Source of the DNA: a virus
Strand: one strand, 5' to 3'
Virus record (IMG/VR): IMGVR_UViG_3300032223_000248
Location: 1-36,647 of that record
Length of the DNA stretch: 36,647 nucleotides
Shown here: positions 24,139-31,139 of the stretch, piece after piece
Numbering within the stretch: position 1 is the first letter of the stretch
Layout of the letters: every line of letters begins with the position of its first letter
Program-made: the position numbers and the translations under genes
The notes under the pieces: generated by a model
Told to the model about the DNA's origin: nothing
Databases searched by the model: none
What the model saw: only the letters and a program-made list of their open reading frames with translations

Positions 24139-25317
24139 ATGGCGACACTCGTTTTAAGACAATCTAAGGGTTCTCCCCTTACAAACAATGAAGTTGATGC
24201 TAACTTCACCAATCTAAACGCAGATATTCAAACCAGAGTATTGATCACAGACTTTAATGCGAACAATATTCTTACATATCTAAAAACTGTTGACGGATCT
24301 GGTTCTGGTTTAGACGCTGATACTGTTGACGGATATAATGCCGTTGCTGCTATGCCAGCTGGACCTGACTATAGTTCGCTTGTAGCTCGCGATGCAGCAG
24401 GTAACTCAGTATTTAATAGTATCACTTCTACTGGAACAATTAATGGTGTTTCAGCTACCTTTAGTGGTGCTCTGAATGTTGGATCCATCTCAATTTCTGG
24501 TGGTTCTATTCCTGTTGCCGTTGGTGGTACTGGCGCAACTAATGCCTCAAATGCCCGAGCTAACCTTGGGTTAACTATCGGAACTAACGTCCAGGCATGG
24601 AATACCAAACTAGACGCTCTGACTACAGCAACATATGCAGCTGACACAATCCCTTATTTTACTGGTGCGACAACAACCAGCGCAACATCATTAACTGCTT
24701 ATGCCAGAACTTTGATTGCGGCAAGTTCAGATTCTGCTGCTCGTACTGTTCTTGGTGTTCGTGTTGGTACTGACGTACAACCATTTAGTGCTGAATTGTC
24801 AGCGGAAGCTAGTTTGGCAACTAACGGTATTACTGTTAGAAATGGATCAAACTCTAGAGTAACACGAGCAATCACTGGTGTTACTGGTGAAATTGAAGTA
24901 TCCAACGGCGATGGTGTTTCTGGCAACCCAGCGTTGTCAATTGGTTCCAATATCCCACGTCTAGCAAATAATAATACTTTTGCTGGTGGTTCAAATACCT
25001 TCTCGGGAACTGTTTACGCAGCTAGTTTCCAAGTTTCTTCTGATGCAAGATTAAAAGAGAACGTGGAAACGCTAAATAATGCTGTAGAGACTGTTTCGAA
25101 ACTCCGTGGTGTGTCATATACAAAGAATGGAGTTCCTGAAATTGGTGTAATCGCCCAAGAAATTGAAACAGTATTACCTAAAGTAGTTGGGGAAGACCCT
25201 AACGGATATAAAACTGTTGCATATGGCAACATTGTTGGTTTATTGATCGAAGCTATCAAAGAACAACAAGAAACTATTAAAGAATTAACTACTCGTTTAG
25301 AGAAATTGGAGAACTAA
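24139..25317 (+). CDS. Tail fibre with C-terminal S74 intramolecular chaperone
   Basis: A 392-residue fibre. The N-terminus (ATLVLRQSKGSPLTNNEVDA, then NFTNLNADI) is the common attachment segment of marine phage fibres. The middle has VDGYNAVAAMPAG, then repeated short beta units including GGTGATNASNARANLGLT. Residues from about 296 form a Peptidase_S74 domain: SDARLKENVETL holds the Ser-Lys cleavage site, GVIAQEIETVLPKVV follows, and IVGLLIEAIKEQQETIKEL forms the final helix. Such domains help the fibre trimerise, then cut themselves off before the SDARLK serine. AAGGGA precedes the start. The next gene begins one base after the stop, suggesting that the cysteine-rich protein is made with this fibre. 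Confidence 0.85.
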   Translation: MATLVLRQSKGSPLTNNEVDANFTNLNADIQTRVLITDFNANNILTYLKTVDGSGSGLDADTVDGYNAVAAMPAGPDYSSLVARDAAGNSVFNSITSTGTINGVSATFSGALNVGSISISGGSIPVAVGGTGATNASNARANLGLTIGTNVQAWNTKLDALTTATYAADTIPYFTGATTTSATSLTAYARTLIAASSDSAARTVLGVRVGTDVQPFSAELSAEASLATNGITVRNGSNSRVTRAITGVTGEIEVSNGDGVSGNPALSIGSNIPRLANNNTFAGGSNTFSGTVYAASFQVSSDARLKENVETLNNAVETVSKLRGVSYTKNGVPEIGVIAQEIETVLPKVVGEDPNGYKTVAYGNIVGLLIEAIKEQQETIKELTTRLEKLEN

Positions 25318-25318
25318 T

Positions 25319-25687
25319 ATGACTGTAGGAGCAACTGGTTTTAGAAACTCAGGTGGTACCGACCTTAACGGTATTTTCTGGGGATATAACGGAGACACAG
25401 GTAACCGTGGCGTAAACGACAGTAACGGTAACTGCGGTTGGAACTGCGCATGTAATGCGTGTAACTCTGCGTGTAACTGTAACTGTGGTAACTGTGACGC
25501 TGCCGACATTTCATTAAACGTAATTGTTACTGATTGGCGTTTGAATATCTTCCGTAATACTGATCGTGCTGATGGTATCCGTCACGATTCGCAAGACAAC
25601 ACTATGGGCATGTTCCGTTATATTCGTGTAAATTGCAACTGTAACTGTAATTGCAACTGTAACTGTAACTGTAATTGCAACTGCTAA
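25319..25687 (+). CDS. Asn-Cys repeat protein, possible modified peptide or fibre-tip protein
   Basis: A 122-residue protein of no family I recognise. Residues 1-35 are glycine/asparagine-rich (TGFRNSGGTDLNGIFWGYNG). Residues 36-59 hold eight cysteines, mostly preceded by Asn or Ala (Cys39, 43, 45, 48, 52, 54, 56, 59). Residues 60-104 are cysteine-free (LNVIVTDWRLNIFR). Residues 105-122 are nine uninterrupted Asn-Cys pairs that end the protein. In total 17 of 122 residues are Cys. GGAG is well placed, the start follows the S74 fibre stop by one base, and no signal peptide is seen. Metal or Fe-S binding, disulphide ladders, or enzymatic thioether formation are all possible. A radical SAM gene lies about 1 kb downstream. 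Confidence 0.8.
   Translation: MTVGATGFRNSGGTDLNGIFWGYNGDTGNRGVNDSNGNCGWNCACNACNSACNCNCGNCDAADISLNVIVTDWRLNIFRNTDRADGIRHDSQDNTMGMFRYIRVNCNCNCNCNCNCNCNCNC
25626..25684 (+). repeat. Hexamer tandem repeat encoding Asn-Cys
   Basis: Nine tandem copies of AAYTGY occupy 25631-25684. The order of AATTGC and AACTGT units shows a longer unit (AATTGC AACTGT AACTGT) that was copied, then extended by one AACTGT. Synonymous codons vary, so the Asn-Cys pattern looks kept at the protein level. A less regular version lies in the middle of the gene (25436-25497). Confidence 0.85.
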
Positions 25688-25701
25688 AAGGAAAAAAATA
25701 A

Positions 25702-26661
25702 ATGGCTACATTAGCACAAAGACCAATCGCAGGATTTGATGAAACTGGAGAGAAATCCGTTATCAATGGAAATTACCGTTTTACATACGGATTCGTAGAT
25801 AATAAAATTACAGTTAAAGTTGATAAGATTGTTAGACCAGATCTAACTAGAGAACATAATGACGAAGAAATAACATTTGAAGAAGTAGCTTCACGTGAGT
25901 TTACATCTTCAGAGTTCGCATTAAGAACTGATCACATGGCTTGGTATGTTGACTTTGATGTTGTTAACAATACAATCCTCGACCCATTAGACGTAATCGC
26001 CTATGGCGCAGCGAATGCATACAAAGAACCAAACTATAATGTTTTTGGTTTACATCGCGATTTAATGGCTCGTTATGATTCATATACATTACTACCGATG
26101 TTTTATGTTAAGACGTTTGATTACGGAACAGTTAATTTTGAAAATTCTTTAATTGTATTTTATACAGTTAAACATACTGAACCATCTCCTGGTGATACAA
26201 TTTTAAACAATGAAGTTATTACTTTAGAAGATGAGAACGCAACTCGTTTCTGGATTCGCGATAATCTATTATCCGCTGTAACATTCTCTATTAAAGATTC
26301 AGAAGGAAACTCTGTTGGAAATGTTTCTCCAAAATTAGAATCTACTCCAACTAAAAGACGTTATGGTGTTACTGACGAACCTGCTATGACTCCAAAACTG
26401 AATGCGTATGTAGCAACTTTACCAGCTGGTAAATATAATGTTACTTGCTCTTTCGCCAAGGAATTATACCCAACTGCTGTTAATTCATACGATATCGAGA
26501 TGATTAATGGTATTAGTGCGAAAAACAATATTACGATTGGTGCTGGACAGTCTGATGTTAACATCGACTTAACTGGTTTGAGTACGGGTGATGTATCTAG
26601 AATGAAATTTAATTTAGGCGCATTTACTGCTTACGCTCAATTATTGATTACCATTTCTTAA
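25702..26661 (+). CDS. Unknown 319-residue probable virion protein
   Basis: I do not recognise this protein. It is 319 residues with no signal peptide and no transmembrane segment, mostly beta-strand with short linkers. The N-terminal 150 residues include VINGNYRFTYGFVDNKITVK and a MAWYVDFDVVNN strand. The middle has MFYVKTFDYGTVNFENSLIV. The C-terminal 120 residues look like an Ig-like domain (VTFSIKDSEGNSVGNVSP; LPAGKYNVTCSF) followed by a short strand region. AAAAGGA precedes the start. It follows the Asn-Cys gene by 14 bases and ends before a terminator, so it probably belongs to the same fibre transcription unit. A fibre tip, capping protein or partner of the Asn-Cys protein is possible. 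Confidence 0.6.
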   Translation: MATLAQRPIAGFDETGEKSVINGNYRFTYGFVDNKITVKVDKIVRPDLTREHNDEEITFEEVASREFTSSEFALRTDHMAWYVDFDVVNNTILDPLDVIAYGAANAYKEPNYNVFGLHRDLMARYDSYTLLPMFYVKTFDYGTVNFENSLIVFYTVKHTEPSPGDTILNNEVITLEDENATRFWIRDNLLSAVTFSIKDSEGNSVGNVSPKLESTPTKRRYGVTDEPAMTPKLNAYVATLPAGKYNVTCSFAKELYPTAVNSYDIEMINGISAKNNITIGAGQSDVNIDLTGLSTGDVSRMKFNLGAFTAYAQLLITIS

Positions 26662-26678
26662 TCGTTTCTAATTTGACG

Positions 26679-26685
26679 CTAAATA
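26679..26685 (+). promoter_or_regulatory. Late promoter CTAAATA of the radical SAM operon
   Basis: CTAAATA lies 41 bases before the radical SAM start. Its AAATA forms part of the left arm of the terminator that follows, so transcripts begun here start inside the hairpin and escape it, while read-through from upstream would be stopped. Confidence 0.6.
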
Positions 26686-26713
26686 CCCTATGAAAGTAGG
26701 GTATTTTTATTTT
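26681..26713 (+). terminator. Rho-independent terminator after the Asn-Cys/319-residue unit
   Basis: A 10-base-pair perfect stem (AAATACCCTA, 26681-26690, with TAGGGTATTT, 26697-26706), a six-base loop and a T-rich tail. It ends the fibre/Asn-Cys transcription unit. Confidence 0.82.
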
Positions 26714-26725
26714 ATAAGGAATAAT

Positions 26726-28195
26726 ATGAGTAAATTTAAGTTGATCTTCCAAGGATCAAATGATGTGAAAGAAACTTTGATATATGACCCAATGACTTCA
26801 GAGATGGTATGGGAAAGTACTGGTAATAAACCTACCTTGACACATATCTCTCATGGGTTAGAGTATAAGATTGATGCTAAAGTTTGGACGCCAGCAAAGG
26901 TAACAAACCCACATAATCCAGAATTACACGGAAAAAAATCCGATAAACCAACTACGCTTAAAATCACAATGGGTCTTAAGTGTAATTATGCTTGCTCTTA
27001 CTGTAACCAAGCACACCAACCCCATGATCCAGTTGGCGGTCCAGAAGATGCTGAAGATTTGGTTCAAAAAATCAAAAACAATTTTAAGTTTTCCACCTAT
27101 GATACTTTCCGTTTAGAATTTTGGGGTGGTGAACCAATGGTATATTGGAAGACATTAAAACCTTTAGCTGAAAAGATTCGTACAGTTTATCCAAATGCTC
27201 AGTTTATGATGGTCACTAATGGTTCATTGTTGACCCGAGAAAAGATTGAATGGTTTAATCGTATGGGGTTTGCGATCGGTATGTCTCATGATGGACCACT
27301 CCATGCACAAAACCGTGGACCAGATCCACTAGACGAACCACCAGCAAAAGACGCTGTTGTTTATGCTCTTAAAACAATGGGTCAAAATAGATTTACATTT
27401 AACTGCGTATTAACACGTGAGAATGTTTCTATTGCTGCAGTTCGTGATTTTATTCTAGATAAACTAAATCGTAAAGATTATGGATATGATTATGTTGAAA
27501 TTGCTCAGCATGATCTTCAAGTAACAACAGAAGAACTAATGTTACCATATGATGACTCAGGTATGACTCACTCAATCCAAACCCCAGATGAAAAGAAAGA
27601 GATCCTTCATTCATTGTTTTGGGAAACAATTGAAAGTAGAAACCAATTTAGTTGGACAGTTAACCAGAAGATTCAAGGATTCTTCGAGTCTATCGTTTAT
27701 CAACGACCAGCTGAAGTTCTTGGTCAGAAGTGCGGTATGGATAAAGAAGATACCATTGCCATCGATATGAAAGGTAATGTGACTACATGTCAAAATACTT
27801 CATCTTTGACTAAACATAACCTTGGTAATATCGAGCAGTTGGATGATGTTAGATTAACGAACTCATATCACTGGTCAACTCGTAAAGAATGTCCTTCTTG
27901 CCCAGTAGTTCAGTTATGTCAAGGTGCTTGTTTATTCTTGGAAGACCAATATTGGACTCAAGCGTGCGAAAACCTTTTCTGGTATAATTTGGCTATCCTT
28001 GCTGCTAGTATGTTCATTATGACAGATGGATTGGTTTTAGTTGAAATCCAAGGTGAGAAGATTAGATTTGATGGTGAAACTTCACTTCCTGTTATCGATA
28101 TTGACTATGTTAAGTCAGGTGGTAAACAGAAATCATGGAAGGTTCGTAAGCCAGTTGGCATTCCAGTTGTATCGGTTCCAGCTACACCACAGTAA
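26726..28195 (+). CDS. Radical SAM enzyme with SPASM domain
   Basis: A 489-residue enzyme. I take the ATG at 26726, preceded by AAGGA; the in-frame ATG at 26690 lies inside the terminator stem. Cys86, Cys90 and Cys93 form the CxxxCxxC motif for the SAM-binding 4Fe-4S cluster (KCNYACSYCNQ), and WGGEP lies at 133-137. The C-terminal SPASM region is complete: Cys336-x13-Gly-x4-Cys355, then Cys389, 392, 398 and 402 (CxxCx5Cx3C), and Cys414, enough for two auxiliary clusters. Such enzymes mature peptides (thioether or carbon-carbon links) or proteins (formylglycine). The likely substrate is unproven; the cysteine-rich protein upstream is the obvious candidate. The 107-residue gene follows with a one-base overlap. 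Confidence 0.93.
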   Translation: MSKFKLIFQGSNDVKETLIYDPMTSEMVWESTGNKPTLTHISHGLEYKIDAKVWTPAKVTNPHNPELHGKKSDKPTTLKITMGLKCNYACSYCNQAHQPHDPVGGPEDAEDLVQKIKNNFKFSTYDTFRLEFWGGEPMVYWKTLKPLAEKIRTVYPNAQFMMVTNGSLLTREKIEWFNRMGFAIGMSHDGPLHAQNRGPDPLDEPPAKDAVVYALKTMGQNRFTFNCVLTRENVSIAAVRDFILDKLNRKDYGYDYVEIAQHDLQVTTEELMLPYDDSGMTHSIQTPDEKKEILHSLFWETIESRNQFSWTVNQKIQGFFESIVYQRPAEVLGQKCGMDKEDTIAIDMKGNVTTCQNTSSLTKHNLGNIEQLDDVRLTNSYHWSTRKECPSCPVVQLCQGACLFLEDQYWTQACENLFWYNLAILAASMFIMTDGLVLVEIQGEKIRFDGETSLPVIDIDYVKSGGKQKSWKVRKPVGIPVVSVPATPQ

Positions 28196-28518
28196 TGGCT
28201 TTTCTTGATTGTAATATTTGGGAAATTAACCAGTTCCCAAAATATGGAGTACATTTGGATAGGTATACCCTAGCCAATGTATTTCAATACAGATCTGATG
28301 TTTCTGAGTATCAAAGTAACAACTTTTATATCCAGATTCCAGAGTTTGAGATAAATGGAACAGATGAACAAAAATCATTTATCAATAAATATAAGGAGAA
28401 ATTGATACAATATCGTATCCCATTCCTTATAAATCGAATAAATAGAGGTATGGAGAGTTGGGTAATAGACCTGTCAATGTCTGATTACCTCTTGCATAAA
28501 ATAACAAAGGAGACGTAA
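28195..28518 (+). CDS. Unknown 107-residue protein in the radical SAM operon
   Basis: I do not recognise this protein. It is aromatic-rich and soluble, with no signal peptide or transmembrane segment. Visible segments are FLDCNIWEINQFPKYGVHLD, a QSNNFYIQIPEFEI strand pair, a lysine-rich helix (DEQKSFINKYKEKLIQY) and a C-terminal WVIDLSMSDYLLHKI. It overlaps the radical SAM stop (TAATG) and ends directly before the TRAP-type gene. In many peptide-maturation operons a small protein of this size delivers the leader peptide to the enzyme, but I see no winged-helix pattern to claim that here. Its position makes it a partner of the enzyme or the binding protein. Confidence 0.6.
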   Translation: MAFLDCNIWEINQFPKYGVHLDRYTLANVFQYRSDVSEYQSNNFYIQIPEFEINGTDEQKSFINKYKEKLIQYRIPFLINRINRGMESWVIDLSMSDYLLHKITKET

Positions 28519-29466
28519 ATGGAACAAAAACACGTAAAATGGGTTATCGCTCACGAACCTATTGGTTTGTTCTTGAAAGTTGCTGATTCATTCGCTAAGG
28601 AAGTTAATGAACAGACTGGTGGAAAGTTTAACATTGAAGTTCTTTCATTGTCAGACTATGCTACAAAATACAATGATGGTAAGAAAATTACCAAGAACGA
28701 CCTAATGGAGTTGGTAAATACTGGCGCAATCGAAATGAGCCATATCTACACTACTTGGTTGGCCGACTACAATAAAGATCTACACGCATTGGATCTACCA
28801 TTCCTATTCCGCGACCATGACCACGCTGACGCTGTTCTAGAAGGTCCAATCGGTAGCGATTTGTTAGCTGGTGTTTCTAAACAATCAAACATCAAAGCCA
28901 TGTCTTTCACTTACTCTGGTGGCTATCGTGTTGTTCCAGCTAATTTTAAAGCTGACACTGTAGAAGCATGGCAAGGTAAAACTGTTCGTACAAGTCGCAG
29001 CCCAGTTGCTGTTGAGACTTTCAAATTGCTTGGTGCTGAGCCTAAAGAGAATATTGCTTTGGAAGAAATGAACGCAGCTGCTAAAGCTGGTGAAATTGAA
29101 GCTGGCGAATCTACTTACGTTCGTGTATTCCCACTACAACAGAACGAAGCATTTAGCGTTGTTAATGACACTGCTCACAGTTTGTTTTTGACTTCTATTA
29201 TCGTTAACCAAGATTTCTTCAATCAGTTTGATGCTGAAACTCGTCAGATTATGTCTACTGCTGCATTTAATGCTGCTCGTAAAGAGCGTCGTGAATCAGT
29301 TGCTGACATTCCAAATATCTTGGCTGAGTGTGAAGAAAAAGGTGTTATGGTTGTTACTATGTCTGAAAAAGAAAAAGCTAAGTTTAAAGAAATAACTTCT
29401 CAGGTTTATGAGAAGTTTGCTGACTATTTTACTCCAGGTCTAGTAAATGGCATTCAGTTACATTAA
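28519..29466 (+). CDS. TRAP-type (DctP family) solute-binding protein without signal peptide
   Basis: A 315-residue DctP-type binding protein. Landmarks are VADSFAKEVNEQTGGKFNIE (20-40), the LDLPFLFRDHDHADAVLEGP segment (91-110), AMSFTYSGGYRVV, and WQGKTVRTSRSPVAVETFKL with Arg157 at the place of the conserved carboxylate-binding arginine. The following LLGAEPKEN is also typical. Bacterial relatives start with a Sec signal peptide; this one begins with MEQKHVKWVIAH, directly at the first strand of the mature fold, with a strong AAAGGAG site. No TRAP membrane subunits are nearby. It is therefore cytoplasmic or virion-borne rather than a normal periplasmic protein. A ligand-binding or host-attachment role in the particle is conceivable. 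A host origin is likely. Confidence 0.88.
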   Translation: MEQKHVKWVIAHEPIGLFLKVADSFAKEVNEQTGGKFNIEVLSLSDYATKYNDGKKITKNDLMELVNTGAIEMSHIYTTWLADYNKDLHALDLPFLFRDHDHADAVLEGPIGSDLLAGVSKQSNIKAMSFTYSGGYRVVPANFKADTVEAWQGKTVRTSRSPVAVETFKLLGAEPKENIALEEMNAAAKAGEIEAGESTYVRVFPLQQNEAFSVVNDTAHSLFLTSIIVNQDFFNQFDAETRQIMSTAAFNAARKERRESVADIPNILAECEEKGVMVVTMSEKEKAKFKEITSQVYEKFADYFTPGLVNGIQLH

Positions 29467-29476
29467 TTAGTAAGTG

Positions 29477-29483
29477 CTAAATA
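29477..29483 (+). promoter_or_regulatory. Late promoter CTAAATA of the PP-loop gene
   Basis: CTAAATA directly precedes a strong hairpin and lies 40 bases before the PP-loop gene start. A start point near 29490 would fall inside the hairpin, so new transcripts would lack its left arm. Confidence 0.58.
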
Positions 29484-29484
29484 T

Positions 29485-29512
29485 TGGGGAGCTTCGGCTC
29501 CCCATTTTTATT
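29485..29512 (+). terminator. Rho-independent terminator with TTCG loop
   Basis: An 8-base-pair stem (TGGGGAGC, 29485-29492, with GCTCCCCA, 29497-29504) closed by a stable C(TTCG)G tetraloop and followed by TTTTTATTT. It ends the radical SAM/TRAP unit. Confidence 0.9.
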
Positions 29513-29522
29513 TGAGGATATT

Positions 29523-30545
29523 ATGCAAGTTCTATATTACAATGTGTTCAATGTGCCAGAGATGATTAATAGTGATAATGTAACACCTTACCTATCACCA
29601 AACTTTTCATCAGATTTATTTTCTAATTATAGAAAATTTGGAATGGATAAACAGAATTTTGTATATGATAGAACTGGAACTATTCCTCATTATGTCAACA
29701 TAAAACCAAACCTAGCTCCAATCCCCAACACACAAGGTTTTAATAAATCGTTTGAGCAAGTTGTTGAAGAACGAGCCAAAGAACTTCTTAGTTTTAATAA
29801 ACAAGTTAATGTTGTATGGAGTGGTGGAATTGATAGTACGCTGGCTTTGTTTGCTTTAATTAAATACGCAAATGACCCAAGCCAGATAACTGTTTACGGA
29901 ACATATACATCAATTCTAGAATCAGGTAATCTATTTGATAATAATATTCTACCTAAGGGTGTGCGTCATAGAATTAGGGTTGCTTCAAAGAAAGAGTTTG
30001 AAAGTCCAAACGAAATATATGTAACTGGATTTATGGGTAATCAGTTATTTGGTCCGACAGATGACTTCTCTAAAAACTCAAAGGTAACATTATTTCATCA
30101 CCAATTTAATTATGAAGATCCTTTGGCTCCATACGAGAAGTGTATTTCTGGAGAAAAATTAGAATTTCTGCAGCCGATGATTGACGCTTCTCCAAAGAAA
30201 ATAGAAACAGTTAGAGATTTACGTTGGTGGTTTATTTTTAATTTAGACTGGTATACAGCTAAATTTGATGCACTGGTTCATACTAAGAATAGAAACGATG
30301 TCTATCATTTCTTCGATACAGAGGATTTTCAAAGATATGTTCTTACTACTAAAGAACCATTTACGAAAGAGGTTGGTAACGCATTGACCCATCGTTGGGA
30401 AATGCGACAACTAATTGAAGATTACAGTGGTAATAAACATTACCCTTGGAATAAAACAAAAGGGGTTTCGAATCTTAGCAACTCGAACCCCTCTTGGATG
30501 TTTTTACTTGAAGACTACAGTTTAGTAGTTAGTAAACCCAACTAA
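29523..30545 (+). CDS. Asparagine-synthase-like PP-loop enzyme
   Basis: A 340-residue protein. I place the start at the ATG at 29523 (GAGGA upstream); the TTG further upstream falls in the terminator. Residues 94-110 read QVNVVWSGGIDSTLALF, with the SGGxDS PP-loop at 100-105 that binds ATP pyrophosphate. GFMGNQLFG at 169-177 resembles the GxGgDELFGGY motif of asparagine synthase, though the acidic pair is missing (NQ), so full activity is uncertain. The N-terminal glutaminase domain is absent, so ammonia or another amine would have to be the donor. Relatives of this fold make amides, including macrocycle or lactam bonds. It follows the TRAP-type gene behind its own promoter/stem-loop cassette. 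Confidence 0.72.
   Translation: MQVLYYNVFNVPEMINSDNVTPYLSPNFSSDLFSNYRKFGMDKQNFVYDRTGTIPHYVNIKPNLAPIPNTQGFNKSFEQVVEERAKELLSFNKQVNVVWSGGIDSTLALFALIKYANDPSQITVYGTYTSILESGNLFDNNILPKGVRHRIRVASKKEFESPNEIYVTGFMGNQLFGPTDDFSKNSKVTLFHHQFNYEDPLAPYEKCISGEKLEFLQPMIDASPKKIETVRDLRWWFIFNLDWYTAKFDALVHTKNRNDVYHFFDTEDFQRYVLTTKEPFTKEVGNALTHRWEMRQLIEDYSGNKHYPWNKTKGVSNLSNSNPSWMFLLEDYSLVVSKPN
30453..30492 (-). terminator. Terminator of the minus-strand gene, embedded in the PP-loop gene
   Basis: On the minus strand, AGGGGTTCGA pairs with TCGAAACCCCT with one bulged A, and a TTTTGTTTT tail follows. It lies about 30 bases after the stop of the convergent gene and inside the 3' coding part of the PP-loop gene. Confidence 0.72.
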
Positions 30546-31139
30546 AACATTAAAGAAAACTTGTGCTTGGTCAGACAAGTTAGTTTCAGTATAACGCTGA
30601 ACATATCCAGGAGTTACAAAACACTCTCCGAGTTGCCCTCGAATACCAAAACTTGTTCCAACTAAATTCTGATAAACTTTCTGACGAATGGTTTGAACGC
30701 CACCACGTGTATCTGCGAAATATGTAAACTGCGGATATTGCCCAGTGTTAAGTACGAAAGTTAATACCAATGGAACATGCTCATATGCATGTAATGGAAT
30801 GTGTTCTTTAGCTTGTTGGAACAAAATGTTTGAACCAATAATTTGCGGTAGGTAATTGACGTTTTCACCTTCCTGCAATCCTTCTGTCGATTTTGGTTGG
30901 AACTCTTCCAACTGTTGGCAAATATCATATACAACTTCTTTAAATCTATCGATAGTTGGATGATCTAAAGACATTAGTTCAACATCTTCAGTTTGAGACT
31001 GGTTCAAATCAATCAACGATTGCTGTAATTCTTCAGTCAAACCATAAGAAAAACAACGAAGTTCTGTTGGGAATAGGATTTTTGAGAAAGTCTGTTTAAC
31101 TTCAGTTGATACTTCTTGTGGTGCTTGGTTGTTTTCCAT
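30522..31139 (-). CDS. Unknown protein with a possible 2OG-oxygenase/cupin-like fold
   Basis: A 205-residue protein with no confident family match. Residues 100-145 (IIGSNILFQQAKEHIPLHAY, HVPLVLTFVLNTG, FTYFADTRGG) and 172-202 (ECFVTPGYVQRYTETNLSDQ, QVFFNVLVGF) have the spacing of the two conserved blocks in phage 2OG-Fe(II) oxygenases. However, the HxD pair and the distal His are not clear: His113, His117 and His121 are the only nearby histidines, and Arg182 stands where the distal His would be expected. It may be a non-catalytic relative. The N-terminus is charged and helical. It is the only minus-strand gene between the fibre clusters, converging on the PP-loop gene with a 24-base overlap. 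GGAG precedes the start. Confidence 0.55.
   Translation of the reverse strand: MENNQAPQEVSTEVKQTFSKILFPTELRCFSYGLTEELQQSLIDLNQSQTEDVELMSLDHPTIDRFKEVVYDICQQLEEFQPKSTEGLQEGENVNYLPQIIGSNILFQQAKEHIPLHAYEHVPLVLTFVLNTGQYPQFTYFADTRGGVQTIRQKVYQNLVGTSFGIRGQLGECFVTPGYVQRYTETNLSDQAQVFFNVLVGFTNY

Follow-up and report, generated by a model that had tools for sequence, protein, structure and literature searches.

The 36,647-nucleotide stretch of viral DNA analysed here (IMG/VR record IMGVR_UViG_3300032223_000248; hereafter the window) comes from a T4-like phage, contains its baseplate and tail genes, and probably encodes a fibre-tail maturation system, in which a dedicated radical S-adenosylmethionine (SAM)/SPASM enzyme modifies a protein tail of alternating Asn and Cys residues, with a thioether as the likeliest product. 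We assign this reading a probability of roughly 0.62. It builds on what can be observed directly, namely the genes, the close pairing of enzyme and tail in phages that are otherwise unrelated, the coding nature and C-terminal position of the tail, and the fold and cysteines of the enzyme. The proposed substrate is a protein of 122 amino acids (25319..25687, + strand) that ends in (Asn-Cys)x9 and is kept in the cassette of close relatives; the proposed maturase of its Asn-Cys tail is an enzyme of 490 amino acids (26723..28195, + strand) from the phrog_1802 family. All genes named in an earlier, sequence-only reading of this DNA were found in the window.

The Asn-Cys tail and the enzyme occur together

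The association was evaluated from three directions. Using an (Asn-Cys)5 DNA pattern picked without reference to the enzyme, we obtained 75 viral records and searched them separately; phrog_1802 was encoded in 53 of the 75, with scores of 93-231 bits. An Asn-Ser control pattern gave phrog_1802 in 1 of 50 records, weakly (42 bits), and the enzyme profile matched none of 30 further Asn-Ser records. Among the 22 enzyme-negative (Asn-Cys)5 records, 17 were pure hexamer repeats, and the remaining 5 held true tails whose contig breaks off no more than ~1.6 kb further on.

Starting from the enzyme, 80 loci were retrieved with an enzyme alignment, and those that were new and had 6 kb or more of upstream sequence were scored (n=49, distant). 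By a strict rule an upstream tail was present in 41 of these, and six more (L436, L441, L445, L451, L452 and L459) have an Asn-Cys-rich protein just downstream, for a total of 47/49. Loci gathered by DctP, and hence selected on neither enzyme nor tail, contained enzyme and tail in 29 cases, enzyme only in 2, tail only in 1 (spurious) and neither in 15 (Fisher p=3e-9). One of the two enzyme-only loci is on a contig cut at the enzyme and the other has a shorter tail. The enzyme was found nowhere in the whole records (up to 207 kb) of ten DctP-bearing phages that have none at the locus; a stricter tail pattern likewise gave 0 matches in the whole records of 10 DctP-only phages, a weak negative, as this pattern also misses short tails in two enzyme-bearing records.

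Our first collection was gathered partly by the tail pattern, which makes the enzyme-first and DctP-first tests the unbiased ones. Clustering its 117 enzymes at 70% identity gave 36 groups, all of them with a tail gene on the strand of the enzyme (in L092 the tail overlaps the called start). The pair recurs beside many different neighbour genes, and in L034, L036 and L047 the tail gene lies 20 bases or less from the enzyme gene with no partner gene between. Two isolated phages carry it, Achromobacter phages JWF and 2-1. Whether gathered by tail, enzyme or DctP, the two were not found independently in the samples taken, the reverse of the independent occurrence that would have refuted the sequence-only reading. 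That reading had proposed a phage pathway modifying a fibre-associated peptide and is supported in part: its central idea, an enzyme acting on the Asn-Cys protein, withstands this test, and the remaining island genes are not all part of one pathway.

The tail is a portable protein element

The C-terminus of the window protein reads VNCNCNCNCNCNCNCNCNC, and its run of 18 codons (25631..25684, + strand) mixes AAC with AAT and TGC with TGT. A 21-base Cys-Asn pattern occurs 6 times in the window, against none expected from 100 dinucleotide shuffles. With mixed codons in the window and its relatives, an origin as a DNA microsatellite was rejected for them; such an origin does hold for most bacterial pattern matches and for the 17 viral ones. 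In bacterial genomes the pattern is nearly always a hexamer repeat without meaning, and the exceptions are prophage-like, for example L185 and L194, where the enzyme is present too.

The Cys residues and the alternation are conserved. In 16 relatives Cys stays in register, and Asn is replaced now and then by Ala, Asp or Gln. Over 76 distinct tails the residue preceding Cys is Asn at 366 of 442 positions, Cys is encoded by TGT 231 times and by TGC 211 times, the runs span 3 to 11 units, and 48 of the 76 finish exactly on the last residue of the protein. When the runs were masked, the carriers fell into at least nine unrelated protein families (single linkage), so that the tail appears to act as a portable module. 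Among the carriers are S74 fibres, fibres of collagen-like or repeat type that PHROGs recognises, and short proteins without a PHROGs match. In L042/L064 the tail is the C-terminus of the S74 fibre itself, ending NCNCNCNCNC.

In L436, L441, L445, L451, L452, L101 and L103 the protein continues past an Asn-Cys-rich region into a conserved C-terminal domain, which has membrane-like helices and contains SKIICTKL or GKIICTKL. Short Asn-Cys runs within coat-like or membrane-anchored proteins of Clostridium/Firmicutes genomes (L156, L199 and L176), where no phage context was seen, are probably unrelated.

The enzyme resembles peptide- and protein-modifying radical SAM/SPASM enzymes

The window enzyme matches phrog_1802 (E=6e-63) and Pfam Radical_SAM (E=7e-10). 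Its complete SPASM domain, noted in the sequence-only reading, is confirmed by TIGR04085 (36.5 bits, cut-off 27) and by the alignment of 40-49 enzyme relatives, in which CX3CX2C and all seven SPASM cysteines are invariant; the SPASM model of Pfam scores under its cut-off. The open reading frame list places its start at 26690. Relatives begin at the second Met, at 26723, and the first, in-frame ATG is enclosed by an 11-bp hairpin with a T-run (26681-26706) that lies downstream of the Ig-like gene and ahead of this second Met; the true start is probably 26723 and the listed one wrong. The hairpin may tune the dose of enzyme relative to substrate.

An AlphaFold2 model of the enzyme (predicted local distance difference test, pLDDT, 92) has CteB as its closest fold in the PDB, followed by AnSMEcpe, ChlB, TigE and SuiB, and the solved folds nearest to it all belong to peptide- or protein-modifying enzymes. 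Like CteB, the SCIFF maturase, and ranthipeptide/sactipeptide maturases such as PapB, the phage enzyme combines radical SAM and SPASM domains with all cluster cysteines and has a Cys-rich partner nearby; CteB is its best fold match and PapB its best NCBIfam match. Unlike them, it scores far under the curated cut-offs (70.7 against 340 bits and 43.9 against 425), and it misses every NCBIfam equivalog by a wide margin, the best being PapB at 70.7. The substrates of these maturases are short peptides with CX3D or spaced Cys, whereas the phage enzyme would act on CxC alternation in a structural protein that resembles a fibre.

The anaerobic sulfatase-maturating enzyme (AnSME) AnSMEcpe is similar in fold and SPASM layout and, as proposed for the phage enzyme, acts on Cys. 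In over 90% of relatives, however, a Gln (TCQN) after the SPASM GX4C Cys aligns with the catalytic Asp (CDF) of AnSMEcpe, and the proposed substrate has no CxPxR sulfatase motif; with the catalytic Asp not conserved, AnSME activity is disfavoured. The solved structure closest in sequence is TigE (8vpo; E=2e-21), which acts on a repeated, TIGSVS-like motif without Cys in a cellular peptide system. The phage family itself is described as 'radical SAM domain-containing protein', and the Asn-Cys pairing lies outside that description. A prokaryotic viperin was also considered and rejected (58.1 against 180 bits, with SPASM present; PADLOC pVip 55 bits over the core only).

A second, smaller radical SAM protein (~340-355 amino acids) lies beside Asn-Cys tails in L029 (1672-2694), L076 (4695-5711) and L047 (6012-7079); it accompanies the main enzyme in the first two and stands alone in L047. 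Genes resembling 2-oxoglutarate (2OG)-Fe(II) oxygenases stand directly 5' of the enzyme in L072 (1794-2510, over the Pfam cut-off) and L024 (90-614, just under it).

Proposed maturation of the fibre tip

The enzyme gene is closely associated with Asn-Cys tail genes. Because the linkage of a repetitive Cys tail to one enzyme family is so tight, we infer that the tail is very probably its substrate. As to the reaction, the formation of S-C bonds from Cys to neighbouring residues is our tentative choice, at just short of an even chance; it is favoured over epimerisation and other changes because Cys is invariant in the tail and the spacer is variable. These data allow us to propose a mechanism. 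A small fibre-associated protein ending in alternating Asn-Cys, with the Ig-like partner encoded next to it, would be modified on its tail by the enzyme inside the infected cell, ahead of fibre assembly. A SAM-derived radical would take hydrogen from residues beside Cys (mainly Asn, sometimes Ala or Asp), with subsequent coupling to the Cys sulfur. Cross-linked in this way by thioethers, the fibre would acquire a stiff and chemically changed tip at the end that faces the host. Where a Hint-like domain capable of self-processing directly follows the tail, as in some lineages, it would expose the tail as a free C-terminus. Given that the run stands at the end of a fibre-like protein it is probably host-facing, and the modified tail would serve adsorption.

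Several points weigh against this proposal. Two of the 49 enzyme-first loci, L411 and L449, showed no Asn-Cys tail near the enzyme. Many loci are related, and raw counts therefore overstate the number of independent events, for which the 36 clusters at 70% identity are the fairer measure. In the enzyme model only a β-hairpin precedes the core, with no winged helix like the recognition element (RRE) of pathways for ribosomally synthesised and post-translationally modified peptides (RiPPs). By this model the enzyme lacks the peptide recognition of many RiPP maturases, among them the PapB type, and is set apart from them. The 36.6-kb window is a fragment. We found neither biochemistry nor virion mass spectrometry for any member of the family, and association together with a conserved enzyme is insufficient as proof of substrate identity or chemistry.

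The alternatives differ in whether the enzyme acts on the tail at all. The tail could stay unmodified and serve the fibre tip by binding metal or forming disulfides, with the enzyme modifying another item of the cassette such as the Ig-like partner, whose gene also adjoins that of the enzyme. CxCxC repeats can bind metals, and other phage fibre and spike tips, host-facing ends with alternating side chains, bind iron via HxH repeats, although these use His and need no maturase. We consider such an arrangement unlikely, as the pairing persists across unrelated carriers with only the tail in common, and as three loci place the tail gene next to the enzyme gene with no partner between. That the two genes just co-travel in variable fibre regions is more improbable still, even though genes are exchanged with particular frequency in host-recognition regions and radical SAM gene cassettes have been noted in the host-recognition region of pelagimyophages (PMC7029224): the genes for DctP, the PP-loop enzyme and the 107-residue protein separate from the enzyme at the same place where the tail stays with it, and the pair keeps company with many different neighbours.

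If the enzyme does act on the tail, the product may differ from a thioether. Cα epimerisation to alternating D and L residues, of the proteusin or EpeE type, would suit a D/L β-helix, which would use the strict alternation; EpeE is among the fold matches, and polytheonamide-type peptides show Asn-rich alternation. Against this, the invariant element of the tail is Cys and not Asn, the enzyme has the full SPASM set, and CteB and AnSME give far better fold scores than EpeE, so that epimerisation, or some other change at Cys or Asn, seems to us rather unlikely. A formylglycine generator like AnSME, which would oxidise the tail Cys to aldehydes, is suggested by the annotation of the JWF enzyme gene as an anaerobic sulfatase-maturating enzyme and by the nearness of AnSME in sequence and fold; the replacement of the catalytic Asp by Gln and a TIGR03942 score of 67.7 against a cut-off of 349 make it quite improbable. 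Thioether formation on the tail is the reading we tentatively retain.

Fibre tips decide which cell a phage infects, and a maturation system of this kind would, if true, add a chemical layer to phage-host recognition. It would also provide a function for phrog_1802, a large family of phage enzymes whose present label says no more than 'radical SAM', and would give peptide engineering a maturase whose substrate is repetitive and very simple. Our literature search, with subscription papers and preprints outside its scope and an unseen report therefore possible, returned no account of Asn-Cys tails, and remodelling of a fibre tip by radical chemistry is undescribed in the literature searched. We advance, with less confidence than an even wager would call for, the broader suggestion that a widespread class of phages builds its host-contacting fibre tip from a ribosomal Asn-Cys tail, which a dedicated radical SAM enzyme would convert to a polymer of a kind not seen before, with cross-links or an altered backbone. 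The tail would be a portable module on many unrelated fibre proteins, released as a C-terminus by a Hint domain in some lineages, and would represent a new class of virion-adhesin chemistry.

The Ig-like partner and Hint-like domains

Between tail and enzyme the window encodes an immunoglobulin (Ig)-like β protein of 319 amino acids (25702..26661, + strand). This gene was overlooked in the sequence-only reading and belongs to the core. Its AlphaFold2 model (pLDDT 84) is mostly β, and a fold search gave weak β-sandwich matches only. An Ig-like gene recurs at the same position in several distant loci, and the C-terminal 73 amino acids match the corresponding gene there (hhalign probability 93%, E=3e-7). 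Among close relatives the Ig-like protein is ~23-37% identical, compared with 71-89% for the enzyme. We can only guess that it presents the tail to the enzyme or decorates the fibre.

A Hint-like sequence starts directly after the Asn-Cys run in L072, in L105 and in both Achromobacter phages, JWF and 2-1; in the group with SKIICTKL or GKIICTKL, the conserved C-terminal domain takes its place. The JWF sequence from the run into this domain is NCNCDCNCNCSCFPAGTMV, with a match to Pfam Hom_end_hint (E=3e-12); the other Hint-like domains tested fell below the Pfam cut-off. Without its Hint part, the predicted C-terminal peptide of JWF gp028 is ...RQNCNCDCNCNCS. The arrangement is present in three lineages and absent from the window, and the position of the domain right after the run is in keeping with a tail that has to end freely at the C-terminus.

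Gene layout and the separable DctP module

The genes stand between two fibre clusters in the order S74 fibre, Asn-Cys protein, Ig-like protein, radical SAM/SPASM enzyme, 107-residue protein, DctP, hairpin and PP-loop enzyme. The first of these genes (24139..25317, + strand) encodes a tail fibre with a C-terminal S74 chaperone domain (Peptidase_S74, E=4.7e-14, with PHROGs tail fibre matches), and a large gene ahead of the fibres matches DUF4815. From the S74 gene to DctP the intergenic gaps are ~61 bases or less, and this part therefore looks like a single operon. A terminator-like hairpin (8 bp, TTCG loop, T-run; 29485..29504, + strand) follows DctP.

The 107-residue protein (p107; 28195..28518, + strand) has no family match in Pfam, PHROGs or NCBIfam. 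It usually lies directly 5' of DctP, and adjoins it also in L042, L103, L344 and L346. The DctP-type binding protein of the sequence-only reading (28519..29466, + strand) was verified as a family 7 binding fold (Pfam DctP, E=8.5e-44). Here, as in those relatives that were read, it lacks a signal peptide and begins right with the mature domain, which makes import improbable as its role, and no gene for a DctQ/M membrane partner was seen near it. The PP-loop enzyme, an N-type ATP pyrophosphatase (29523..30545, + strand), carries an SGGIDS motif, and SGGxDST is nearly invariant in 15 relatives. It has weak QueC/asparagine synthase matches, with asparagine synthase itself at only E=0.06. Its listed start (TTG, 29484) falls at the hairpin, and the ATG at 29523 is likelier.

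DctP and the PP-loop enzyme, at times with a DUF2061 membrane protein, are found in phages without enzyme and tail. Conversely, p107, DctP and the PP-loop enzyme are all missing from L015, L019 and L071, which do have the radical SAM enzyme; the tail is seen in L019 and L071, and the L015 contig is cut upstream. The whole island as one pathway was rejected on this separation, and amide-ring formation by the PP-loop enzyme within it, which the sequence-only reading had entertained, is not supported by linkage. We regard DctP and the PP-loop enzyme as passengers that form a module outside the core. The 205-residue protein (30522..31139, - strand) had been suggested as a possible 2OG-fold protein, which the data do not support: it has no Pfam match over the cut-off, and 15 relatives show no conserved HxD/E...H triad. 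Its place is conserved in close relatives, but nothing we found ties it to the pair of tail and enzyme.

Enzyme-free DctP loci (L341, L353, L361, L362, L366 and L372) encode a signal-less DctP fold and a PP-loop enzyme, several with a protein of ~240-280 amino acids, and constitute an undescribed phage module of solute-binding folds. The neighbours of DctP in L341 and L353 include binding proteins of the TctC/Bug type, which do carry signal peptides. The small membrane protein DUF2061 is encoded in L103 (4072-4296, - strand; E=4e-13) and recurs near DctP/PP-loop genes in L341, L366 and L369.

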